Of a stretch of 32,498 nucleotides of DNA, positions 23,829-32,498 are shown piece by piece. Location of the stretch: NCBI GenBank assembly GCA_016867965.1, contig VGIH01000007.1, positions 1 to 32,498 of the forward strand. The letters run 5' to 3'. A program made the position numbers and the translations under genes. Numbering within the stretch: the first letter of the stretch is position 1; each line of letters begins with the position of its first letter. This stretch comes from Betaproteobacteria bacterium. Its GTDB lineage: Bacteria > Pseudomonadota > Gammaproteobacteria > Burkholderiales > Burkholderiaceae. The notes below the pieces were generated by a model, which saw only the letters and a list, made by a program, of their open reading frames with translations, made no database searches and was not told where the DNA came from.

Positions 23829-24269
23829 ATGTTTTTAGAAGAGCACGATTTACAAACGTCAACCAAGATCGATGACTTGGAAGCAAAATATCAAGAGATT
23901 GAAGTATTCACTCGCGCTCTATTTGACGACATGAATGATGCAGAACGAAATCGTCTTGAGACCATCAAGCATCGATTTGAAAAGCTCAAAGAAACTCTTT
24001 TCCAAAACTCGGATCATATCTTAAGTCATGCTAAACATCCCGATTTAGGATCTGCCCAAAAGGCACTGCGCGAGGCACAACTCAATATGATGTTTGATTG
24101 GGAGCAATTTGGGCTAACTGAGGACATGTTTTTTAAGTTATATCAATGCCACCGCAATCAATTGATCGGTGATGCCGATCTGAAAGCGCGAGCCACTTTA
24201 ATCCAACAGATATTGGCCATTGAGATCAATCTCACCTTGCTCTTTAAAATCCGGCAAATAACTCCATGA
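23829..24269 (+). CDS. Helical protein of unknown function
   Basis: 146 residues, almost entirely predicted helix, acidic in the N-terminal half, with heptad-like patterns (DLEAKYQEIEVFTRALFDDM and ETIKHRFEKLKETLF). I do not recognise a family. It starts seven bases after the DUF1653-like stop, and its end overlaps the modA start by four bases (ATGA), so the three genes are likely one operon. Confidence 0.6.
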   Translation: MFLEEHDLQTSTKIDDLEAKYQEIEVFTRALFDDMNDAERNRLETIKHRFEKLKETLFQNSDHILSHAKHPDLGSAQKALREAQLNMMFDWEQFGLTEDMFFKLYQCHRNQLIGDADLKARATLIQQILAIEINLTLLFKIRQITP

Positions 24270-25018
24270 TCATTCGTAAGTTCCTACTAATCCTTTCTTG
24301 CTCACTCTTTGCTGGGCTTGTACACGCTCAAGCGACATTTGTCGTGGTCGCAGCCAATATGAAAGATGCATTTATTGAGATTCAGAATCAGTTCCAGAAA
24401 GAAAACAGGGGTGATTTAAAGGTCATCTATGGCTCCTCGGGTAACTTTTCCTCACAAATCATGAACGGTGCCCCATTTCACTTGTTTATCTCTGCAGACG
24501 AGCAATACCCTCTCGAACTATTTAAAAAAGGGAAAACGGTTAATGAGGGCACTATTTATGCCATTGGAAAATTAGCGCTGATTGCAAATAATGGTAAGAG
24601 AATTACTCTGGATAACTCCAAAGAAAAAATTGTAGATGCCGTTAAGAAGGCCAACAAGATTGCTCTGGCAAAGCCCGAACTTGCACCTTATGGCCGTGCC
24701 AGTGTTGAATATCTAAAAGCTAGCAACCTATGGGAACTGGCAAATACGAAGATTGTATATGCAGACAATATTGCGATGGTAGCGATGTTTGTAACAACGG
24801 GCTCTGCAGATATTGGCTTTACTGCTCTCTCGATTGCGAAATCACCCTCCGTTGCCAAGCAGATCTCCTCTGTTGAACTAAAAGATGGCTATCAGCCAAT
24901 TAAACAACGGATGGTGCTCATTAAAAATCCTACGCCTGATGCAGTTCGTCTTTATGAGTTTATGCAATCTACTAAGGCCAAAGAGGTTTTACGCTCCTTT
25001 GGATATCAAACCCCATAA
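24266..25018 (+). CDS. modA: Molybdate ABC transporter substrate-binding protein ModA
   Basis: A 250-residue periplasmic binding protein with a signal peptide ending VHA-QATF. The mature N-terminus VVVAANMKDAFIEI and the segment YGSSGNFSSQI, which holds the Ser residues that hold the oxyanion, match ModA, as does the HLFISADEQYPLEL stretch and the later APYGRASVEYL. It would capture molybdate (or tungstate) for a ModBC permease, but no modB or modC gene follows; pagP does. Orphan modA genes often work with a permease encoded elsewhere. The ATGA overlap with the helical protein gene is notable. Confidence 0.9.
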   Translation: MIIRKFLLILSCSLFAGLVHAQATFVVVAANMKDAFIEIQNQFQKENRGDLKVIYGSSGNFSSQIMNGAPFHLFISADEQYPLELFKKGKTVNEGTIYAIGKLALIANNGKRITLDNSKEKIVDAVKKANKIALAKPELAPYGRASVEYLKASNLWELANTKIVYADNIAMVAMFVTTGSADIGFTALSIAKSPSVAKQISSVELKDGYQPIKQRMVLIKNPTPDAVRLYEFMQSTKAKEVLRSFGYQTP

Positions 25019-25076: not shown

Positions 25077-25649
25077 ATGAACACTAGCAATAAAAGCAAA
25101 CTCCGAATGCGATTTCCTTTGTTCTTATTTTTTCAGTTGGGCATAATCACTCTAGTGCATGCGAATACCTCTTTAGTGGATTCGGTCAAATCGAAGGTTG
25201 AAACAATTTGGGCTCAAGGAGATGTGGTCGGATATTTACCCCTATACACCTACCACATGCCCTATGCCTATCCTCCAGAGAAATTAGATCAGTACACCGA
25301 TATTCCACTGGGGCTTGGAATTGGTAAAGGTTTGTATAACAATCGCGGCAATTGGGAGGGGCTCTATGCCATGGCATTTAGAGACTCTCATGGCGTTTAT
25401 CAATACATGGCTGGCTACGGTTGGATTCCAACCTGGAAGTTGTCTACCAATGGAAATTGGAGGGTGGGCGCTGGAGCAACGGTATTTATGATGTCGCGGC
25501 AAGATATTTTTAATTACATCCCATTTCCTGGCTTGCTCCCAGTTGGTTCATTGGGCTATAAAAATCTCAGCCTTCAAACCTCATTTGTGCCTGGTGGTGA
25601 TGGTTTTGGTAATGTCCTTTTTACATGGGCAAAATGGACATTTAAGTAA
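25077..25649 (+). CDS. pagP: Lipid A palmitoyltransferase PagP
   Basis: 190 residues with a signal peptide (to about VHA-NTS), then a small outer-membrane beta barrel. His60 in YHMPYAY, and Asp103 and Ser104 in AMAFRDSHG, line up with the catalytic His, Asp and Ser of E. coli PagP. Also typical are NWEGLYAMAFRDS, AGYGWIPTWK and FNYIPFPGLLPVGSLGY. The enzyme moves a palmitate from a phospholipid to lipid A in the outer leaflet, changing permeability and resistance to cationic peptides. In enterobacteria it is under PhoPQ control; I see no such box here. Confidence 0.93.
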   Translation: MNTSNKSKLRMRFPLFLFFQLGIITLVHANTSLVDSVKSKVETIWAQGDVVGYLPLYTYHMPYAYPPEKLDQYTDIPLGLGIGKGLYNNRGNWEGLYAMAFRDSHGVYQYMAGYGWIPTWKLSTNGNWRVGAGATVFMMSRQDIFNYIPFPGLLPVGSLGYKNLSLQTSFVPGGDGFGNVLFTWAKWTFK

Positions 25650-25660
25650 GATAGCTATAA

Positions 25661-26584
25661 ATGCTCAGATACCTAGCCCTCTTAGCCAGCTTTATTCTCC
25701 TTGGTGGGCATAGTCTCCTCTCTTTGGCCCAGCCCGCCGGTATTGCTCAAAGTCCTGGACTGAAAGCATCTGTCAGTGTGGTTGGCATTAATCAATTTAA
25801 TACCAAGCTTAATTCTGGGGGTAACTTTGGTTGGTCTCATGCTAGCGCATCACTCAGACTTCTAAACAATATTTCTCCGGTCACTACGGTTGGCGTGTCA
25901 TTGCGCTATGAAACTGAGTTTTGGAACTGGAGCAATATGCAGGCCTATAACTTAGGCGGTAAAAATCCTTGGGGTACCATCCAAAGCCCTGGGGTCAGCT
26001 TTGTGTACACCCATAAATTCGATTCGGATTGGAAGCTCAACTTGATACCAACCATCGAGTCGACTGCTGAACAGGGTGCTGAGCTCGGTAACTCATTAAC
26101 CTATGGTGCGATTATCAATGCATCAAAGCAGCTATCGCCCACTCTCAATCTCGGTTTAGGTAGCGGAGTCTTTCGACAAATTGATACAAACCGTATTTTT
26201 CCTTTCATTGTGATTGATTGGAAAATTACCGACCGTTGGAATCTTAATAATCCATTTCCTGGAGGGCCTGCTGGTGGTGCAGGCCTGGAATTGAGTTATG
26301 CGGTCACACCACAATTTAAGATATCAGGTGGTGCGGCTTATCGCAGTTACCGTTTTCGTCTGAGTAGCTCCAATGCCTATGCTGGCGGCGTGGGTCAAAA
26401 CAAATTTGTTCCCATCTTTGCACGATTCTCCTACGCATTTGATCGAACCACTTTGCTAGATCTTTATACGATTGCAAACGTTGGTGGCAGCGTTTCAGCA
26501 TTTGATCAAAGTGGTAATACCGTGCTCAGCACTAATTACAAAACAGCTCCTGCGATTGCCGTGAGTCTAGTAAAGCGCTTCTGA
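25661..26584 (+). CDS. Outer-membrane beta-barrel protein (DUF6268-like)
   Basis: 307 residues with a signal peptide ending SLA-QPAG, alternating hydrophobic strands, many Gly/Tyr/Trp, and a C-terminal Phe (VKRF) as expected for BAM-assembled barrels. It resembles DUF6268 proteins in overall pattern, but I am unsure of the name. It follows pagP at an 11-base gap on the same strand and may share its transcript. The ligand is unknown. The last core gene before the tRNA-Met junction. Confidence 0.75.
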   Translation: MLRYLALLASFILLGGHSLLSLAQPAGIAQSPGLKASVSVVGINQFNTKLNSGGNFGWSHASASLRLLNNISPVTTVGVSLRYETEFWNWSNMQAYNLGGKNPWGTIQSPGVSFVYTHKFDSDWKLNLIPTIESTAEQGAELGNSLTYGAIINASKQLSPTLNLGLGSGVFRQIDTNRIFPFIVIDWKITDRWNLNNPFPGGPAGGAGLELSYAVTPQFKISGGAAYRSYRFRLSSSNAYAGGVGQNKFVPIFARFSYAFDRTTLLDLYTIANVGGSVSAFDQSGNTVLSTNYKTAPAIAVSLVKRF

Positions 26585-26630
26585 TTCTAGGAATCCACCT
26601 CTTATTAATGCCGTATTTACTGCATTTTGT

Positions 26631-26636
26631 TAAAAT
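26631..26636 (+). promoter_or_regulatory. -10 box of the first tRNA-Met 5' half
   Basis: TAAAAT, nine bases before the tRNA 5' end. The second copy has TATAAT at exactly the same spacing. No convincing -35 is visible. Confidence 0.45.
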
Positions 26637-26645
26637 TCTTAGTTC

Positions 26646-26681
26646 GGCGAATTAGCTCAGCTGGTTAGAGCGACGGAATCA
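26646..26681 (+). tRNA. tRNA-Met(CAU) 5' half, copy 1 (broken at the anticodon loop)
   Basis: The acceptor strand, D-arm (AGCTCAGCTGGTTAGAGC) and the 5' side of the anticodon stem (ACGGA) of an elongator tRNA-Met are intact, then the sequence changes after ATCA of the anticodon loop. The matching TCCGT, T-arm and acceptor 3' strand do not follow. It is therefore not a working tRNA as it stands. Upstream bases, including an AATTCTNAG block, match copy 2. Confidence 0.85.
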
Positions 26682-26707
26682 ACCATGGCTGAGGATGCCT
26701 GATTCTA
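26676..26707. repeat. 32-base direct repeat, left copy (putative attachment arm)
   Basis: Starts with GAATC of the tRNA anticodon loop and continues ACCATGGC-GAGGATGCCTGA. It matches 27605-27636 at 29 of 32 positions. The left copy contains a GAATCA/TGATTC inverted pair, and its last three bases are the stop codon of the hydrolase gene on the other strand. Confidence 0.7.
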
Positions 26708-27475
26708 CTTAAAAAGCTTATCTAGAAACTTTTTTGTATTTTCTTGGGACTCTTTGGCAGCACTGGGATCATATTGATGTAAAAAGTTCAGTCTTACCGT
26801 GCTGGATATTGATACGTCAAAAGCATGTGTTGCGCCTATATATTTATGAACGTCATACATAGGATCATCCAGTGGAACACAAAATCCTATAAAGGCTAAA
26901 GTATCATCTCCAGCCAAATGAATCTGGGTGGGAATGGTTGGCTTTATTGGTGGCGGACTCAGAGTACATGCTGGATAAAAAGCTACTGCGCCAGCAAATG
27001 GAATTTTTTGTCCCTTTTTAACAACCTTAAAGTACTCAACATCCTCTTGTTTGGCCACCAAGGCAAGAACTCCACCGCCACCCTGACTAAAGCCAATTAC
27101 CGCCATATTACCCTTATGCCAAGGCTGCTTAGAAATCCAATAGCCTGCTTGAACCATATCTCTTGCCCTATCTTCACCCCTGACGCCGGGGATGAACTGG
27201 CCAGTATGCGCACCTACCCCACGCAATGAGTAGTGATCAATGATGACCGCGTTATAGCCCCATGATTGAACTCGCATTGCCCACTCACGATGAAAGTTCT
27301 GAACACCATCAGAGCCATGCGCAATTAGAACGGTGGGGGTTGTTTTTTTCTCATCAACAGGACTTGCGCTAAGCAAAACAGGGATAGAGTTTCCATCCTG
27401 ATCTTTTAACCAATGGGTTGAGCAACCACTAAGCGCCAATAAAATCGCAAGCACTATTGGGCGGGTAAATTTCAT
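26705..27475 (-). CDS. Lipoprotein alpha/beta hydrolase (dienelactone-hydrolase-like)
   Basis: I start at ATG 27475 (MKFTRPIVLAILLALSGC), with GGAGG eight bases upstream. This gives a lipobox LSGC, so the protein is a lipoprotein of 256 residues. The alpha/beta hydrolase core shows the nucleophile elbow GFSQGGG, an oxyanion-like region (TVLIAHGSDGVQNFHREW) and a late His in GATHAFD. Substrates are unknown; the dienelactone hydrolase family includes many general esterases. It lies between the two tRNA-Met halves, inside a 929-base unit bounded by direct repeats, and so may have arrived as cargo of an integrative element. Confidence 0.82.
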   Translation of the reverse strand: MKFTRPIVLAILLALSGCSTHWLKDQDGNSIPVLLSASPVDEKKTTPTVLIAHGSDGVQNFHREWAMRVQSWGYNAVIIDHYSLRGVGAHTGQFIPGVRGEDRARDMVQAGYWISKQPWHKGNMAVIGFSQGGGGVLALVAKQEDVEYFKVVKKGQKIPFAGAVAFYPACTLSPPPIKPTIPTQIHLAGDDTLAFIGFCVPLDDPMYDVHKYIGATHAFDVSISSTVRLNFLHQYDPSAAKESQENTKKFLDKLFK

Positions 27476-27520
27476 AATCATAGCCTCCAATGATTCTAAA
27501 TATTAGCACCAGCCTAATGT

Positions 27521-27535
27521 GTCCTTTTAAAGGAC
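27521..27535. repeat. GTCCTTTTAAAGGAC palindrome upstream of the hydrolase gene
   Basis: Perfect seven-base inverted repeat around one base, about 45 bases before the hydrolase start. It belongs to a loose set of GTC-TTAAA-GAC palindromes seen in this part of the window (27647, 31066, 31770). Possible operator. Confidence 0.4.
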
Positions 27536-27604
27536 GATGCTGGGATAGAGGGAAAGAAAAAACCGCCCGAAGCTGGTTTTAGTGATTCTTAGTAACCCGG
27601 GGTT

Positions 27605-27636
27605 GAATCGACCATGGCAGAGGATGCCTGACTCTA
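27605..27636. repeat. 32-base direct repeat, right copy
   Basis: 29 of 32 identical with 26676-26707. Preceded by CCGGGGTT, unlike the left copy, where the tRNA 5' half precedes. This is what one would expect if the right copy keeps the free attachment-site arm of the element. Confidence 0.65.
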
Positions 27637-27646
27637 ACACTAGACT

Positions 27647-27661
27647 GTCTTTTTAAACGAC
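27647..27661. repeat. Second GTC-TTAAA-GAC near-palindrome
   Basis: GTCTTTTTAAACGAC, an imperfect version of the 27521 motif. Together with 27491-27745 it forms a gene-free stretch holding these motifs and the right direct repeat. Confidence 0.25.
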
Positions 27662-27730
27662 ACATTCCACAACCTCATGGATGAGATATTCCCCAGTTTG
27701 GGCCTGGCCAGCTCTTGAAGCCTTTTACCT

Positions 27731-27736
27731 TATAAT
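27731..27736 (+). promoter_or_regulatory. -10 box of the second tRNA-Met 5' half
   Basis: TATAAT nine bases before the tRNA 5' end, at the same spacing as TAAAAT in copy 1. It suggests that copy 2 brought its own promoter. Confidence 0.5.
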
Positions 27737-27745
27737 TCTCAGTTC

Positions 27746-27784
27746 GGCGAATTAGCTCAGCTGGTTAGAGCGACGGAATCATAA
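27746..27784 (+). tRNA. tRNA-Met(CAU) 5' half, copy 2 (junction with the integrase element)
   Basis: Identical to copy 1 through GACGGAATCA and continues to ATCATAA, which is the whole CAU anticodon loop. The 3' stem (TCCGT) is then replaced by CGATGATT, so the tRNA is cut at the 3' side of the loop. AATCAT-AACG-ATGATT (27777-27792) forms a perfect six-base inverted repeat at the junction, typical of a tyrosine-recombinase core site. The integrase gene starts 205 bases further on. Confidence 0.88.
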
Positions 27785-27989
27785 CGATGATTTTGAGTAA
27801 TGAAACAGTTTTACATCATTGAGTTAAGCATACGCTCACTGTGTTGTTCGATTCGCACCACTCAACACGGCTCTCACTAATCTAAAACACTTTCGCAGTA
27901 GCGTTCGCAGAACATCGTGTGAGATTTTGACAACGATATAGCGGTTAATCGTCGCAGAAAATTTCAAACGACAGCACACTACGCTGTAT
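27785..27989. other. Gene-free region between attachment site and integrase
   Basis: 205 bases without a credible gene. Holds an inverted pair GTGTTG (27841-27846) and CAACAC (27863-27868), which could be arm-type integrase sites, and repeated GTTCGCA-like words. No clear promoter hexamer pair for the integrase was found. Confidence 0.4.
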
Positions 27990-29201
27990 ATGAAAGACCT
28001 TCGGTTTATTTTCACCACAGCCACCGAAAAAATTCCCTCATCCCTAAAACTCTTTGACGGCAAACTCACTGTCTATAAGCGTTCGCAGTCCGCACAGTGG
28101 CAATGTCGCTTTAAGCTTAGCAATGGTAAATGGCATAGTGCAAGCTGCGCAACGACTGATTTAAGTGCAGCGAAACAACAGGCTGTGGTGCTATATGAAA
28201 TTATCAAACTGAAAGTGGATGCGGGTTTAGCGATTCACACGAAAACATTTGGGCAGATTGCTCGCGAAGAGATTACACGTTTAGCGCGAATTGCAACTAC
28301 ACGACAGAGTGAGCGCAAATACAAAGACTATTTGTTTATTTTAGAAAAGTATCTCATTCCGTTTTTTGGTAGCTACGCAGTTGCTGACATTAGTGATGAA
28401 GTGGTTGCTGAGTTTAGTGCGTGGCGTTTATCTGAGATGGGTAAAGATGCAAAAGCGATAACAAAGAAACATCACGCAATGGCATTTAATCGAATTGTGC
28501 AGATTGCACGTGAGTGTGGTTATGTATCTGCTAATAAAGTAGTTGCACAGTTAGATATTAGTGGCGCAAAGAGCGAACCACGTCCTGCGTTTAGCAATGA
28601 AGAGATGGAGCAACTGTATGCCTATATGCCGCTGTGGCAAAAGAACATAATCCACAAAGACTCTGAAGCAGCACGAATCTTATGCTCTGTATATGTCAAG
28701 TTTTTAGTCAATACGGGTGTGCGACACAGCACCGAATCGATGCCACTGCGGTGGAAACACTTACAGTGGCACTATATTGGTAGTAAGCGCTATTTGCGTG
28801 TATGGGTGAGTGGTAAAACAGGCGCACGTTATCTAATTGCGAAGCACGAAGTCATTAGCGTATTAGAAGAACTGCTTAAGTGGCAACAATTACCTTATCG
28901 CACATTAGATGAAGTGATTAAGGCTAAATTAGATAGACGCATCTTTACGCTACCCACCGGCGAGATGCCGCACCTACTCGAAAACATCTTTCGGCACTTA
29001 ATGATGAAGAGTGGATTACAAAAGAATGCTGCGGGACAGAATCGAACCTTATACAGCTTACGACATACCTATGCAACGGAAGCGTTAGCAAAAGGAATTG
29101 ATATTCACACATTAGCCAAACAAATGGGAACGAGTGTAGTAATGATTGAAAAGCACTACAGCAAGCTAACTGCGATGATGAGTGCGGAGCGATTGGCTTA
29201 A
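27990..29201 (+). CDS. Tyrosine-type site-specific integrase
   Basis: A 403-residue integrase. An N-terminal arm-binding region (1-80), a core-binding SAM-like domain (about 85-185) and a catalytic domain follow each other. Catalytic residues: Arg245 (NTGVRHST), Lys276 (SGKTGAR), Arg358 with His359 (YSLRHTYAT) and the nucleophile Tyr390 (EKHYSKL). The usual box II histidine is Tyr355, and the late Gly-His is Gly-Thr, both common in this branch of integrases. It lies next to the tRNA-Met junction and probably cuts the anticodon-loop core site. It converges with the second recombinase, two bases between stops. Confidence 0.93.
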   Translation: MKDLRFIFTTATEKIPSSLKLFDGKLTVYKRSQSAQWQCRFKLSNGKWHSASCATTDLSAAKQQAVVLYEIIKLKVDAGLAIHTKTFGQIAREEITRLARIATTRQSERKYKDYLFILEKYLIPFFGSYAVADISDEVVAEFSAWRLSEMGKDAKAITKKHHAMAFNRIVQIARECGYVSANKVVAQLDISGAKSEPRPAFSNEEMEQLYAYMPLWQKNIIHKDSEAARILCSVYVKFLVNTGVRHSTESMPLRWKHLQWHYIGSKRYLRVWVSGKTGARYLIAKHEVISVLEELLKWQQLPYRTLDEVIKAKLDRRIFTLPTGEMPHLLENIFRHLMMKSGLQKNAAGQNRTLYSLRHTYATEALAKGIDIHTLAKQMGTSVVMIEKHYSKLTAMMSAERLA

Positions 29202-29203
29202 AT

Positions 29204-29779
29204 TCAAACCAACTCTACTGCCTTACGCTTCATCTCATCATTCACATCAATATAAGCCTGCGTCGTTGTAATACTTCGATGTCCTGCTAAGCTCATTAGC
29301 ACCCGCACACCGATGCCCTTATTCGCTAAATTTGTAATAAACGTGCGTCTGCCACTATGCGAGCTCGCTCCATCAATACCCACACGCTTATACAGATAAT
29401 GAAAGAGCTGCGTTAGGGTATTAGCACTAAAGCCATTGCTATTGGCTTTTTGACTGTAAAACAGCTTTTGATTGAGATTAGTGGGCATGTATCTACGGCA
29501 ATACAACTCTAACTCTTTACGCAGTCGCTCATTCACAAACACGATACGTGCGTGATTGCCCTTCGTTTGTGTAGCTGAGAGTCGTATTTCTGCTTTTATA
29601 ACACCGCTGCTATCAACCACATCACCGTATGTAAGGCTCGCAACCTCACCCACCCGCATTCCACTTAAAAATGAAGTCATTATGATGGCGCGATTACGTG
29701 CTGCGTGTTTGCGAGTAGCGACGTAGTCTAATACGCGTCGCAGTTCTGTTTGCGTCAGTGTCTTTGCTTGCTTACTCAT
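29204..29779 (-). CDS. Short tyrosine recombinase, catalytic domain only
   Basis: 191 residues holding a complete catalytic set: Arg42 (GMRVGE), Lys73 (QTKGN), His141 and Arg144 (HSGRR), His167 (AGHRS) and Tyr176 (AYIDV). It lacks the N-terminal core-binding domain of ordinary integrases, a size and layout like FimB/FimE invertases. AGAGGAG precedes the ATG, so it is likely expressed. It could act as an inversion or excision partner, or serve dimer resolution. Convergent with the large integrase. Confidence 0.9.
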   Translation of the reverse strand: MSKQAKTLTQTELRRVLDYVATRKHAARNRAIIMTSFLSGMRVGEVASLTYGDVVDSSGVIKAEIRLSATQTKGNHARIVFVNERLRKELELYCRRYMPTNLNQKLFYSQKANSNGFSANTLTQLFHYLYKRVGIDGASSHSGRRTFITNLANKGIGVRVLMSLAGHRSITTTQAYIDVNDEMKRKAVELV

Positions 29780-29972
29780 TGTGTGTTTCTCCTCTAAATC
29801 TAAGCATTACTTAAGTAATACTATGTATTCTTTGTTTGTTAATTCCTACCTCTTTTTATGTGCTGTTTGTGCTATTAATTTCTTTCCACAAAACAATGAG
29901 ATAGCAGCAGTAGCATTACAGATATAACAAAATTAGTATTTCCTTATATCTGCCTATTTAGTGCAGCACATA

Positions 29973-29997
29973 TTGACTACTTCATTTTTGTAGTCAA
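29973..29997. repeat. Perfect eight-base inverted repeat
   Basis: TTGACTAC (29973-29980) and GTAGTCAA (29990-29997) with a nine-base spacer. Spacer and arm lengths are in the range of a tyrosine-recombinase core or a repressor site. It lies about 200 bases upstream of the short recombinase start. No T-run in the right place for a terminator. Confidence 0.45.
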
Positions 29998-30153
29998 AAA
30001 GCCACATTCACAGCTGACTATTTTTTTAGCTTCGCTGCATAGTGTTCTGTGTCGTTAATACATAGACACGTGAAGATTGCTAAAACGTGCTTATTTGACG
30101 TTTTTGACGTATTTAAGCAGTGGTTTTGTTAGTGCAGTGCTTTATGAGTAATG

Positions 30154-30172
30154 AAGCAAACTGCGTTTGCTT
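30154..30172 (+). repeat. Inverted repeat, weak terminator-like
   Basis: AAGCAAAC-TGC-GTTTGCTT, a perfect eight-base stem with a three-base loop, followed by TTGCTC. The T-run is short, so termination would be weak. No plus-strand gene ends before it. Confidence 0.4.
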
Positions 30173-30631
30173 TTGCTCAGCACTTCTTTTCTTTCTTTTT
30201 CTTTTTTATTTCTTTTGTTTGATGGATTGCTTATTTGATTACTTAAATGAGAAATAATAAAGAGATATAAAGCAATATTGATTTATATGATTACACTGGT
30301 TTTTGAGCAAAGAACGGCTATACGCATACTCTTTAAAGTATTCGTTTAGTCGTCCTTACTAATTAACTTAACCAATCTGGTTCCGTCGCATAGTCCTGTA
30401 ATACAGTTTTACGTAAGACAATCGTATTAAAACTTACAACTCACTTCTGCATTGATTTGCATTGTGAGCAACTGTGCGGCACTTACTCTATTGTGTGATT
30501 TGCTATTACAGCAACAAATCACAGAGCACAGACGCATTAGCCGTCATATTCCAATCTGCGTTTTTGTCCTTTTTTATTGCAGTGACTTATCTGCCGTATT
30601 TGCCCATCTTTGCCTATTCTTCTTACTGTGT

Positions 30632-30991
30632 TTATTTAGGTGCTTGTCGCTTTGCCTTAATTTTTCTACGTGCTTTTTTAGTATGTCGATTTGCCTTAAA
30701 TTCTGCTCGTTTTAGTTTTTTGCCTAAATTCATTACCTCATACGTTTGGCGCTTTGTAATACTGCTGCGCTTTTGACTGTGATTAGCGCAATAGTAAAAG
30801 TCCATTAATGCGTCTTTTTGTGCTTCACTTAATAGCTCGATTTTGTGCTTAAGTAAGTAAAACGCGGTCTTTTGCGCTTGTAATAGCCATATGTCCGTTT
30901 TTTCAAACTGCGCAGTGCTAATGCCATTCGCTAATAGCCACTGTGCAGTTTTTTGCTCATTTTTAAGGGTTTTAAAGTCTGCTGTATTCAT
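30632..30991 (-). CDS. Basic protein of unknown function in the element
   Basis: I choose ATG 30991 (MNTADFKTLKNEQ), 119 residues; a TTG five codons upstream is the other option. The first two thirds are helical (AQWLLANGISTAQFEKTDIWLLQAQKTA), the end very basic (KRAEFKANRHTKKARRKIKAKRQ), which suggests nucleic-acid binding. No strong ribosome-binding site. I do not recognise a family. It lies in AT-rich DNA between the recombinases and the DUF6641-like gene. Confidence 0.5.
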   Translation of the reverse strand: MNTADFKTLKNEQKTAQWLLANGISTAQFEKTDIWLLQAQKTAFYLLKHKIELLSEAQKDALMDFYYCANHSQKRSSITKRQTYEVMNLGKKLKRAEFKANRHTKKARRKIKAKRQAPK

Positions 30992-31318
30992 ACATTTATT
31001 TAGCAATACCTAATAAAAGCCTAAAATTTTCTATTTTTCTTATATAAATCAGCTACTTACAAATAGTCGTGTTAAAGCGACTTTTTGCTGCTTTTGCCTT
31101 ATTTGCAGCTGCTTTTAAGTCCTATTTGCGTAGTGCTGCATATGCCTAAATCTATTAAAAATAGGCTGTTTTTAAGCTTTTATTAGGCTTTTGTAAGCTT
31201 ATTTAGATGCGTATGTGGGATAGCGTCAAAAACACGCTAAAAACCACCTAAAAATTGGTAGGAATTGCGTTTTATCGAAACTACAGTGTGCGTATTACAT
31301 TGATTTGGAGAAACGCAA
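30992..31318. other. Gene-free leader region of the DUF6641-like gene
   Basis: 327 AT-rich bases. Contains the GTCG-TTAAA-CGAC hairpin (31066-31081), a perfect TAGCGT/ACGCTA pair (31221-31239) and several AGGCT/AGCCT words in both orientations. Probably carries promoters for the genes on both sides. Confidence 0.4.
31066..31081. repeat. GTCGTGTTAAAGCGAC hairpin, left copy
   Basis: One base different from the copy at 31770-31785, which lies on the far side of the DUF6641-like gene. AGTCG and CGACT form a five-base stem followed by TTTTT on the plus strand, so it may also act as a terminator. Confidence 0.5.
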
Positions 31319-31762
31319 ATGAGCACACTTACTTCATTAAAACTGTCTGCCGCTAAAAAACCCGCGCATTTAAGCGCAGTGGTGATTCGGCGCAATAAAT
31401 TGATTGCGAAACTGTGGGAACAAATCCAACTCGCTAAAAGTCAAATGGAAGGCACTGCATTTACGGTAAAGAAGTTTCGAAGTATTAAAGATACGGAAAC
31501 GGGGCTGCGTAAAAGTGTGGAAGTGAATAAACGCATACGCGAGTGGTGGTTTAGGAATGATGCTGGTAAGGTCTGTGTCAGTATTAGCTACGGCACACAA
31601 GTGATTGAGTTAGCGAAGGGCAAACACAGTATTGAAGTAGAGAATGCGCAAGCATTGATTAAAGCATTAGAGACAGTAAAGCAAGCGGTGGAGGCGGGCG
31701 AATTGGATATGCAGATTGAGAATGCAGGTAATCATTTGCGCAGTGGCTTTCGTAAATCCTAA
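31319..31762 (+). CDS. DUF6641-like protein of the element
   Basis: 147 residues. The segments VVIRRNKLIAKLWEQIQLAK, KRIREWWFRNDAGKVCVSISYG and a C-terminal EAGELDMQIENAGNHLRSGFRK match, as I recall, the DUF6641 family, which is often found on integrative elements and plasmids of beta- and gammaproteobacteria. The function is unknown. GGAG lies eleven bases before the ATG. Bracketed by two near-identical hairpins (31066, 31770). Base composition and codon use look less AT-rich than its surroundings. Confidence 0.7.
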   Translation: MSTLTSLKLSAAKKPAHLSAVVIRRNKLIAKLWEQIQLAKSQMEGTAFTVKKFRSIKDTETGLRKSVEVNKRIREWWFRNDAGKVCVSISYGTQVIELAKGKHSIEVENAQALIKALETVKQAVEAGELDMQIENAGNHLRSGFRKS

Positions 31763-31769
31763 TACGTGC

Positions 31770-31785
31770 GTCGTGTTAAAACGAC
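31770..31785. repeat. GTCGTGTTAAAACGAC hairpin, right copy
   Basis: Perfect five-base stem (GTCGT/ACGAC) eight bases after the DUF6641-like stop; 15 of 16 identical with the left copy at 31066. Confidence 0.5.
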
Positions 31786-31825
31786 ACAGTGAATAGCGAT
31801 AGGCGCATATGGCTTAAATAGTTGT

Positions 31826-32032
31826 ATGCGCTTTTTTGAGATTACCAATAATCATTCCGTCGCTCCAACGAAACCACAGACGTCTGCACAAGTAAGGATT
31901 AGGTCATTGCAGCAGCAAAAGGACGGTGTCAATCGTGCGCTGCAAGCAGAACGTAAGCGTCAGCGCATCGCACGTGCGCAGCAGTCATTAGCACGTGCCA
32001 CTGCGCCCACCACTACGATTGAACAGATTTAG
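31826..32032 (+). CDS. Small charged coiled-coil-like protein (68 aa)
   Basis: 68 residues, strongly basic and helical (LQAERKRQRIARAQQSLARA), with a short hydrophobic-poor head. Lacks a membrane helix. Similar short proteins accompany DUF6641-type genes on elements, but I am not sure of that. No clear ribosome-binding site. Function unknown. Confidence 0.5.
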   Translation: MRFFEITNNHSVAPTKPQTSAQVRIRSLQQQKDGVNRALQAERKRQRIARAQQSLARATAPTTTIEQI

Positions 32033-32236
32033 ACACCCTAAAAACAGGATTAGAGCCCGACGCCACAATGGTTTGAGCTATTTGACAGAGTTAGCAGCAA
32101 TTACATTAATACAGCACCATAGTCAATTTACTATAGTTCAAAGTCATATGCATTAAGAAAATAGTTAATGCATCATGGTTTTATTCCTAAACTACATTAT
32201 AATTTTTGATATGTTTAGAAATTTTATAAATTGTTT

Positions 32237-32498
32237 ATGAAAAATCTTAAATTATTTTTTTTATTCTCACTTTTTATTTTTTCACAAGCAGCTTTTTCTC
32301 TTGAAGAGCCTCCAGGCACTACAGCTCAAACTGAAGAAGAGGAAATTGCCTATCTTAACCAATTAAAAAAGGATAGGGGTGAGGGAAAAATACACATGGA
32401 ACCTGGTATTGAAAAAAGTTGGATTAATGCAGATGTTTATGTTCCAAATAACTTTTTCCCAAAAAAAATAACAAACTTAACTCTTGATAAAAAATATC
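32237..32498 (+). CDS. Secreted protein, N-terminal part (runs off the right edge)
   Basis: ATG at 32237; 87 residues seen. A Phe/Leu-rich signal peptide with a likely cleavage after SQAAFS (about residue 21), then an acidic segment EEPPGTTAQTEEEEIAYL and VYVPNNFFPKKITNLTLD. Very AT-rich coding. I do not recognise the family; the C-terminal part lies outside the window. Confidence 0.6.
   Translation, partial: MKNLKLFFLFSLFIFSQAAFSLEEPPGTTAQTEEEEIAYLNQLKKDRGEGKIHMEPGIEKSWINADVYVPNNFFPKKITNLTLDKKY

Follow-up and report, generated by a model that had tools for sequence, protein, structure and literature searches.

The question raised by this locus is why a bacterial contig should carry, one behind the other, two copies of the front part of a tRNA gene and nothing of its rear part. 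The window, by which we mean the whole 32,498-nt stretch analyzed, is the entire contig C7 (VGIH01000007.1) of a 1.98-Mb genome in 227 contigs from Polynucleobacter, a freshwater genus. It contains two orphan 5' halves of tRNA-Met (anticodon CAT) on the forward strand, half 1 of 36 nt at 26646..26681 and half 2 of 39 nt at 27746..27784. The original prediction, made from the letters of the window, took them for tandem halves cut at the anticodon loop and possibly left behind by a rare mode of integration that replaces the 5' side of the gene. Our analysis of the genus leads to the same answer, which we regard as very probably correct: the halves are left attachment-site (attL) junctions of integrative elements that a tyrosine integrase inserts into the anticodon loop of tRNA-Met, with restoration of the 5' side of the gene.

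The two halves lie where they had been predicted, 1100 bp apart, and each begins nine bases after the end of a -10-like box (TAAAAT at 26631 and TATAAT at 27731). They agree at every one of their first 36 nt, from GGCG to GGAATCA, and the 52-nt blocks 26630-26681 and 27730-27781, of which the first includes the putative promoter end of half 1 (26630..26645, +), share 96% identity. The cut at the anticodon loop holds for half 2, which matches the intact gene for three more bases (TAA) and so reaches the last base of the loop, but half 1 departs from the intact gene three bases earlier (ACC in place of TAA) and diverges before the loop ends. The reported lack of a 3' half in the window is confirmed, since ARAGORN finds no tRNA there and the 3'-half pattern occurs in the genome only on contigs C49 and C8; Rfam gives no match in the window. 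The 5'-half pattern occurs in three places in the genome (halves 1 and 2 and C49), so the halves do not belong to a scattered repeat.

The copy on C49 is the sole intact tRNA-Met found (C49:736-812, anticodon CAT). Its 5' half is identical to halves 1 and 2 and is joined to the anticodon stem and T-arm, which is the third half that had been expected to the right of 32498. The host left flank in the window ends with a substrate-binding, ModA-like gene (24266..25018, +; name read from the protein), a gene that lies directly 5' of the orphan half in genome G126 and directly 5' of tRNA-Met in the empty site of G050. In G050, the homologue of this gene, tRNA-Met, and the gene that succeeds tRNA-Met on C49 stand in this order, and therefore C7 and C49 border one and the same insertion. 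The window ends within a hydrolase-like gene, whose first part (32237..32498, +), assigned to a probable unit 3, continues on C49 (3-497). Both pieces are matched in order, with 72 nt between them, in four of five homologous loci, the matches of the N-terminal piece being weak (E 0.003-0.04). By synteny and by the gene split across the contig ends, C49 is placed to the right of C7. From left to right, the array thus consists of the host flank to 25018, genes for PagP and DUF6268, half 1, unit 1, half 2, unit 2, the probable unit 3, which extends onto C49, and the intact tRNA. The two rounds of insertion proposed originally are well supported in this array; a third, unit 3 over the contig end, is probable, and the right end of unit 2 carries no half.

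The same arrangement recurs across the genus. We searched 186 genomes with the 5'-half pattern, allowing 3 mismatches, and a reversed control pattern gave 0 matches in them. The half is found in 174 genomes, 24 of which have two or more copies, and 18 hold true tRNA-Met orphans (25 distinct orphans); the copies in six multi-copy genomes (G025, G119, G137, G158, G164, and G169) are intact or cut by a contig end and were not counted. A further, decayed case is G032, where the half is broken by small duplications. Orphan and intact gene lie on one contig in 15 genomes, and all 19 orphans in these are upstream of the intact gene and on the same strand; four genomes (G060, G062, G128, and G184) have two orphans and one intact gene on a single contig. 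Distances between the copies range from 1 to 92 kb, and the intervening DNA is dissimilar. For tRNA-Phe in 14 genomes (19 orphans) and for a second CAT tRNA (CAT2) in 4 genomes, the orphans likewise share contig and strand with an intact gene further downstream; these genomes were picked because an integrase pointed there, and their frequencies are no estimates. The Phe copies of G100 lie on two contigs and those of G142 on fragments, and no intact CAT2 gene was found in G045 and G103. These two genomes also have CAT-tRNA halves of a third type (L202, L204, and L214), which end in CATGG or CATAG, lack the usual promoter, and run into a shared sequence.

The position of the break is nearly constant. 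Of the 25 Met, 23 Phe, and 11 CAT2 orphans, 21, 22, and 8, respectively, follow the intact gene up to the final base of the 7-nt anticodon loop and diverge from there on, which makes 51 of 59 for the three tRNAs together; the tally includes one Phe row with 4 mismatches (L116) that is probably no orphan. Junctions at this base are as expected if the overlap of the tyrosine integrase is the loop, and they suggest that strand exchange takes place within it. The comparison with relatives that have an uninterrupted tRNA-Met (G050, G007, G020, G081, and G127), proposed earlier as a check, shows the predicted junctions. Between the empty G007 and the occupied G096, the left flank is unbroken to tRNA nt 39, and the right alignment starts 21 bp before the tRNA. 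The alignments of G020 with G100 and of G081 with G059, in which the left flank falls into two pieces, stop at nt 39 as well.

The empty sites also show which copy keeps the host promoter. In six occupied/empty pairs, the identity to the empty relative from -120 to -20 is 85, 76, 65, 60, 75, and 58% for the orphan versus 48, 51, 49, 51, 48, and 48% for the restored gene, so the orphan is the nearer one in all six; the baseline from 60 random 100-mers has a mean of 49% and a maximum of 54%. From -400 to -120, the orphan is 69-88% like the empty relative in five pairs. Downstream, the relation is reversed, with 79, 90, 77, 55, 95, and 81% for the restored gene versus 47-51% for the orphan. These flank identities show that the displaced half keeps the host promoter region and that the promoter of the working tRNA has been replaced by one borne on the element. 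The promoter regions of orphan and restored gene are often alike in the 20 bp or so next to the tRNA, perhaps from later exchange.

Half 2 is followed by Int403 (27990..29201, +), a tyrosine integrase of 403 aa according to Pfam (PF00589, Phage_integrase, E=1.7e-6), PHROG (integrase), and the tree described below, whose start lies 236 bp after the D-arm of the half. Integrases of this type, with at least 64% identity, belong to 11 distinct tRNA-Met elements, in which the half lies at 233-236 bp (10 by pattern and G032 by eye). Relatives of 52-57% identity follow a half of tRNA-Phe at 216-241 bp or of CAT2 at 193-201 bp, the distance being 233-241 bp for Met and most Phe elements. In a scan upstream of 103 integrase rows, where the same gene sometimes stands in two loci, a D-arm lies within 420 bp in 41 (six of them intact tRNAs) and none in 62, so that most rows have no tRNA upstream. 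We built a maximum-likelihood tree of 89 integrases, in which identical proteins were collapsed and five loci (L083, L043, L148, L164, and L175) were left out as too short in frame. All 26 integrases with a 5' label fall into one group of 35, with ultrafast bootstrap (UFBoot) and Shimodaira-Hasegawa-like approximate likelihood ratio test (SH-aLRT) values of 100/98 under a midpoint root. Of the eight unlabelled rows of the group, seven have a Phe orphan on one side and the intact gene on the other, the eighth is that of G142, and one row has too little upstream sequence. The Met rows and the CAT2 rows each form one group (100/100), and the Phe rows do not; the row L178, printed as Ile3, has in fact a tRNA-Met. 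The tree thus points to a clade of integrases given over to 5'-restoring integration.

These results are consistent with a simple sequence of events. At the right end of the free circle there would be a promoter and tRNA nt 1-39, adjoining the left end and the integrase gene. Recombination across the 7-bp anticodon loop would join this promoter and 5' half to the 3' half of the host, giving a new intact gene, while the old promoter and 5' half of the host would be left at the other end of the element, facing the integrase gene about 240 bp downstream, so that int might be transcribed from the orphan promoter. Each insertion into the restored gene would add one orphan half upstream, and the array would therefore grow at the tRNA end, with unit 3 as the probable supplier of the promoter of today's tRNA-Met. 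The 5'-replacing integration that had been put forward as a possibility is upheld by the intact gene with the same half on C49, the junctions at empty sites, and the promoter swap; the mode is known in print, though rare.

Several observations weigh against this reading. C7 and C49 are separate contigs, so the array of the window is not read in one piece; half 1 stops short of the loop end, and an integrase is missing from unit 1. The identity of the orphan to the empty relative is only 58 and 60% in two pairs, near the baseline maximum of 54, and in the pair G001/G127 the likeness on the left stops near -120 (51% from -400 to -120), where the left flank differs. Integrases of about 40% identity that lie outside the group are found in the tRNA-Met arrays of G041, G060, G062, G131, and G184, and the elements hold two or three recombinases, among which the acting one is not singled out. 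If the islands were of the ordinary, 3'-restoring kind, the 5' halves could be stumps of tRNA genes cut by later deletions. Such islands do occur at the same tRNA-Met, and the ends of units 1 and 2 are decayed, but deletions would not stop at one base as 51 of 59 orphans do at the loop end, the empty-site pairs put the break at nt 39, and the restored gene has a near-promoter sequence other than that of the host. We therefore consider deletion stumps very improbable. A local tandem duplication of the 5' part of the tRNA without any mobile element would account for copies in tandem on one strand; the distances and unlike DNA between copies, the integrases of one clade after most of them, and above all the clean empty sites in relatives, which refute it, leave this explanation with practically no weight.

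It is a separate matter which recombinase moves the element. Directly beside Int403, on the opposite strand, lies Int191 (29204..29779, -), a second tyrosine recombinase with a catalytic domain (PHROG; Pfam PF00589, E=1.9e-28), which is the better Phage_integrase match of the two. An open reading frame (ORF) of 341-343 aa near the right end is present in five of the eight integrase-bearing elements listed, and the one scanned is a third tyrosine recombinase; the units of G126 and G055 have ends without any integrase found. Int191 or another recombinase could thus be the active enzyme and Int403 a passenger, but Int403 adjoins the left junction, and its tree groups the Met and CAT2 rows by target, which makes this unlikely, and Int403 is presumably the acting integrase. 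An idea compatible with 5'-restoring integration is that the orphan half and its promoter are kept for a job of their own, as int promoter or as a source of tRNA-half RNA. Eighteen of the 25 Met orphans do not differ from the genus consensus through the loop and keep the -10-like box, and those in the clade mostly point at int; the tRNA-Asn promoter of the host drives int when ICEKp1 is integrated (PMC13023037). The same identity would result, however, from recent insertion or from a need to preserve attL, and some copies decay (G032, G044, G048, and G128), so a separate function is possible but on balance doubtful.

The 5'-restoring mode is not confined to the integrase clade. In Limnohabitans sp. 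MMS-10A-178, two tRNA-Met orphans stand before integrases of 39-40% identity, with the intact gene further on along the same contig and strand, and Phe halves precede integrase relatives in two metagenome-assembled genomes (MAGs) of Methylophilaceae and one of Burkholderiales. Among the further relatives, of which 39 of 86 loci were examined, 7 have a half, 3 an intact tRNA, and 29 neither. The ordinary mode is represented, for example, by the integrase relatives L303 and L319, which follow an intact tRNA-Phe, L319 (39%) being a viral-contig locus. A phage nature of the elements is unsupported: in the scans of viral contigs, integrase relatives turned up at two and six loci, mostly as short matches. 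In eight genomes (G006, G047, G076, G079, G086, G107, G121, and G123), tRNA-Met is represented by two 3' halves and a single 5' half; these genomes hold ordinary 3'-restoring elements at the same gene, in four of them seen in detail. The integrases in these four (28-30% identity) lie just downstream of the intact tRNA-Met, and three of them stand far outside the group in the tree. The genome of the window itself has a second 3' half, of a tRNA-Met variant, on C8 (G000:C8:436-474, minus strand; one mismatch to the pattern), perhaps the trace of a 3'-restoring element or of a second gene. Upstream of integrase relatives outside the 5' clade (L126, L129, L130, L131, L134-L137, and L142-L145), a motif like GGGTCG-TTTGAGCC-GCC-AAGTAGGG is present without a tRNA, and these rows seem to have another type of target.

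Integration that restores the 5' side is already known and is rare: the Islander database holds 159 such islands among 3919 (PMC4383910), pTN3-like archaeal elements restore the 5' side and the mode is seldom met in bacteria (PMC8371274, PMC5495485), and in bacteria all but very few tRNA islands let the tRNA keep its original promoter (PMC8371274). The 5'-fragment islands of Islander resemble ours in their tyrosine integrase, the intact tRNA downstream, the displaced 5' fragment upstream in the same orientation, and the anticodon-centered site (PMC4383910). Here, unit 2 has tyrosine integrases (Int403 and Int191) and unit 1 has none; the fragment lies upstream and in line directly in 15 genomes and, for the window, by synteny over the contig gap; and half 2 ends at the anticodon loop, whereas half 1 does not. 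The pattern of an ordinary 3'-restoring island does not fit, since the window holds no 3' half and the promoter changes. Whereas the Islander cases are recorded as single mapped islands, one integrase clade is seen here at three tRNA genes, with stacked arrays and a measured promoter replacement.

Other systems share parts of this design. The pTN3-like elements of Thermococcales also part the restored tRNA from its original promoter (PMC5495485, PMC8371274), but integration splits their integrase gene, whereas Int403 is one intact ORF. In switching of the ICEKp1/ICEclc type, the host tRNA promoter reads int when the element is integrated and a promoter at the 3' end does so when it is excised (PMC13023037); the geometry here allows the same, but the host promoter stays with the restored tRNA there and would be lost to it here. 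Tycheposons and the tRNA-Met islands of Methylophilaceae are, by their description, similar cargo islands of freshwater bacteria bordered by tRNA-Met and with a tyrosine recombinase, although the portion of that paper drawn on here describes no 5' fragment or promoter change (PMC10872708). In the tRNA-dependent lysogeny of mycobacteriophages, the element also answers for an essential host tRNA after integration (PMC10865867), but a whole phage tRNA gene replaces the unrebuilt one there, while here the gene is rebuilt from the 5' half of the element. Among open-access papers, we found no report on such elements in Polynucleobacter. New are therefore the apparent devotion of an integrase clade to the 5' mode, arrays of two and probably three rounds, the repeated replacement of a tRNA promoter, and units in which no integrase is found.

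The genus has tRNA-Met stem variants, and a variant-A 5' half on a variant-B 3' half would give an A-A pair in the acceptor stem and a C-A pair in the anticodon stem. Orphans occur in 0 of 23 variant-B genomes and 16 of 103 others (hand count over G000-G129 as listed; Fisher two-sided P = 0.04, kinship ignored), variant B being at the 3-mismatch limit of the pattern, so that decayed orphans there would be missed. The 3'-restoring elements seem to occur in variant B, with two 3' halves in G079 and G086. We tentatively propose, as a plausible but still insecure synthesis, that the promoters of three apparently single-copy tRNA genes (Met, Phe, and the second CAT) are mobile parts: the clade would swap promoter and 5' half with each insertion, the element would control an essential tRNA, the displaced host promoter would read int, each element would bring a half matched to the 3' half of its host, so that stem pairs set the host range, and integrase-less cargo units would ride in a one-way, cassette-like array anchored at the tRNA. 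An integrase clade that reverses the usual promoter retention at three tRNA genes, repeatedly in one genus, makes it testable whether mobile elements set the dosage of essential tRNAs, whether an element can no longer be deleted once its orphan half has decayed, and how an integrase lineage comes to switch the restored side. The 5'- and 3'-restoring elements at one anticodon loop in sister genomes offer a natural comparison.

The elements have a recurring layout, with gaps, of Int403, cargo, Int191, DUF6641, and right end; no DUF6641 was seen in the element of G089. Examples of cargo are an HpaII-type restriction-modification pair in G184, a cytosine methylase in G059, and an autotransporter in G100. 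Defense cargo as a rule is unsupported, with PADLOC matches for 3 of the 10 cargo proteins scanned, and no relaxase or conjugation genes were seen in the subset of ORFs scanned. The unit of G126 carries GGDEF, HD, glycosyltransferase, and P-type ATPase genes and that of G055 sulfur transport, rhodanese, and OmpA genes, both with the arrangement of orphan and intact gene; neither has a match to Int403 or Int191, and no integrase is among the 13 of 18 ORFs scanned.

In the window, the PagP and DUF6268 genes (25077-26584) lie between the host flank and half 1. They also precede the first half in G128 and are not present in G050 or G126, and by eye no tRNA remnant is seen before them. Unit 1 (26682..27745) is a remnant with an altered left end, made up of a hydrolase gene (26705-27490, -; Pfam Peptidase_S15/DLH) and a right end with the -10-like TATAAT; the window ORF list has no integrase in it, and the sequence from 27582 onward aligns with the sequence 5' of half 2 in G128. 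A 32-nt direct repeat (91%) starts inside the end of half 1 (26676-26707) and has its second copy towards the right of unit 1 (27605-27636); the genome holds only these two places, so it was rejected as a scattered repeat. Unit 2 begins with a left end and leader (27785..27989, +) that align with G001 and G128. The stop codons of Int403 and Int191 are separated by 2 bp (29201-29204), with no cargo between the two genes, and G001 and G128 have about 3 kb there, so this may be a cargo entry point. There follow orf124 (30632..31006, -), which is 95-96% identical in G001 and G128, the closest elements, and has no Pfam or PHROG match, and the DUF6641 gene (31319..31762, +; Pfam), a backbone gene found in several relatives. 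A small basic ORF of 68 aa (31826..32032, +) near the right end has, by eye, a similar C-terminal reading in relatives and could, as a guess, encode a directionality factor. The right end itself (32033..32139, +) belongs to a stretch (29206-32139) that aligns at 90% with G128, where the intact tRNA begins 8 bp further on.

Two further sequence features lie in unit 2. An inverted near-copy of the tRNA-Met anticodon arm (31851-31869, -; 89% over 19 nt) near the right end is kept in G001 and G128; it lies inside the small ORF, and we therefore do not claim it as a site. Palindromes of the type GTCGTTTTAAACGAC (31066-31081 and 31770-31785) recur at element ends (L078, L088, and L089) and after the integrase genes of relatives, and they are possibly a recombination site or a terminator.
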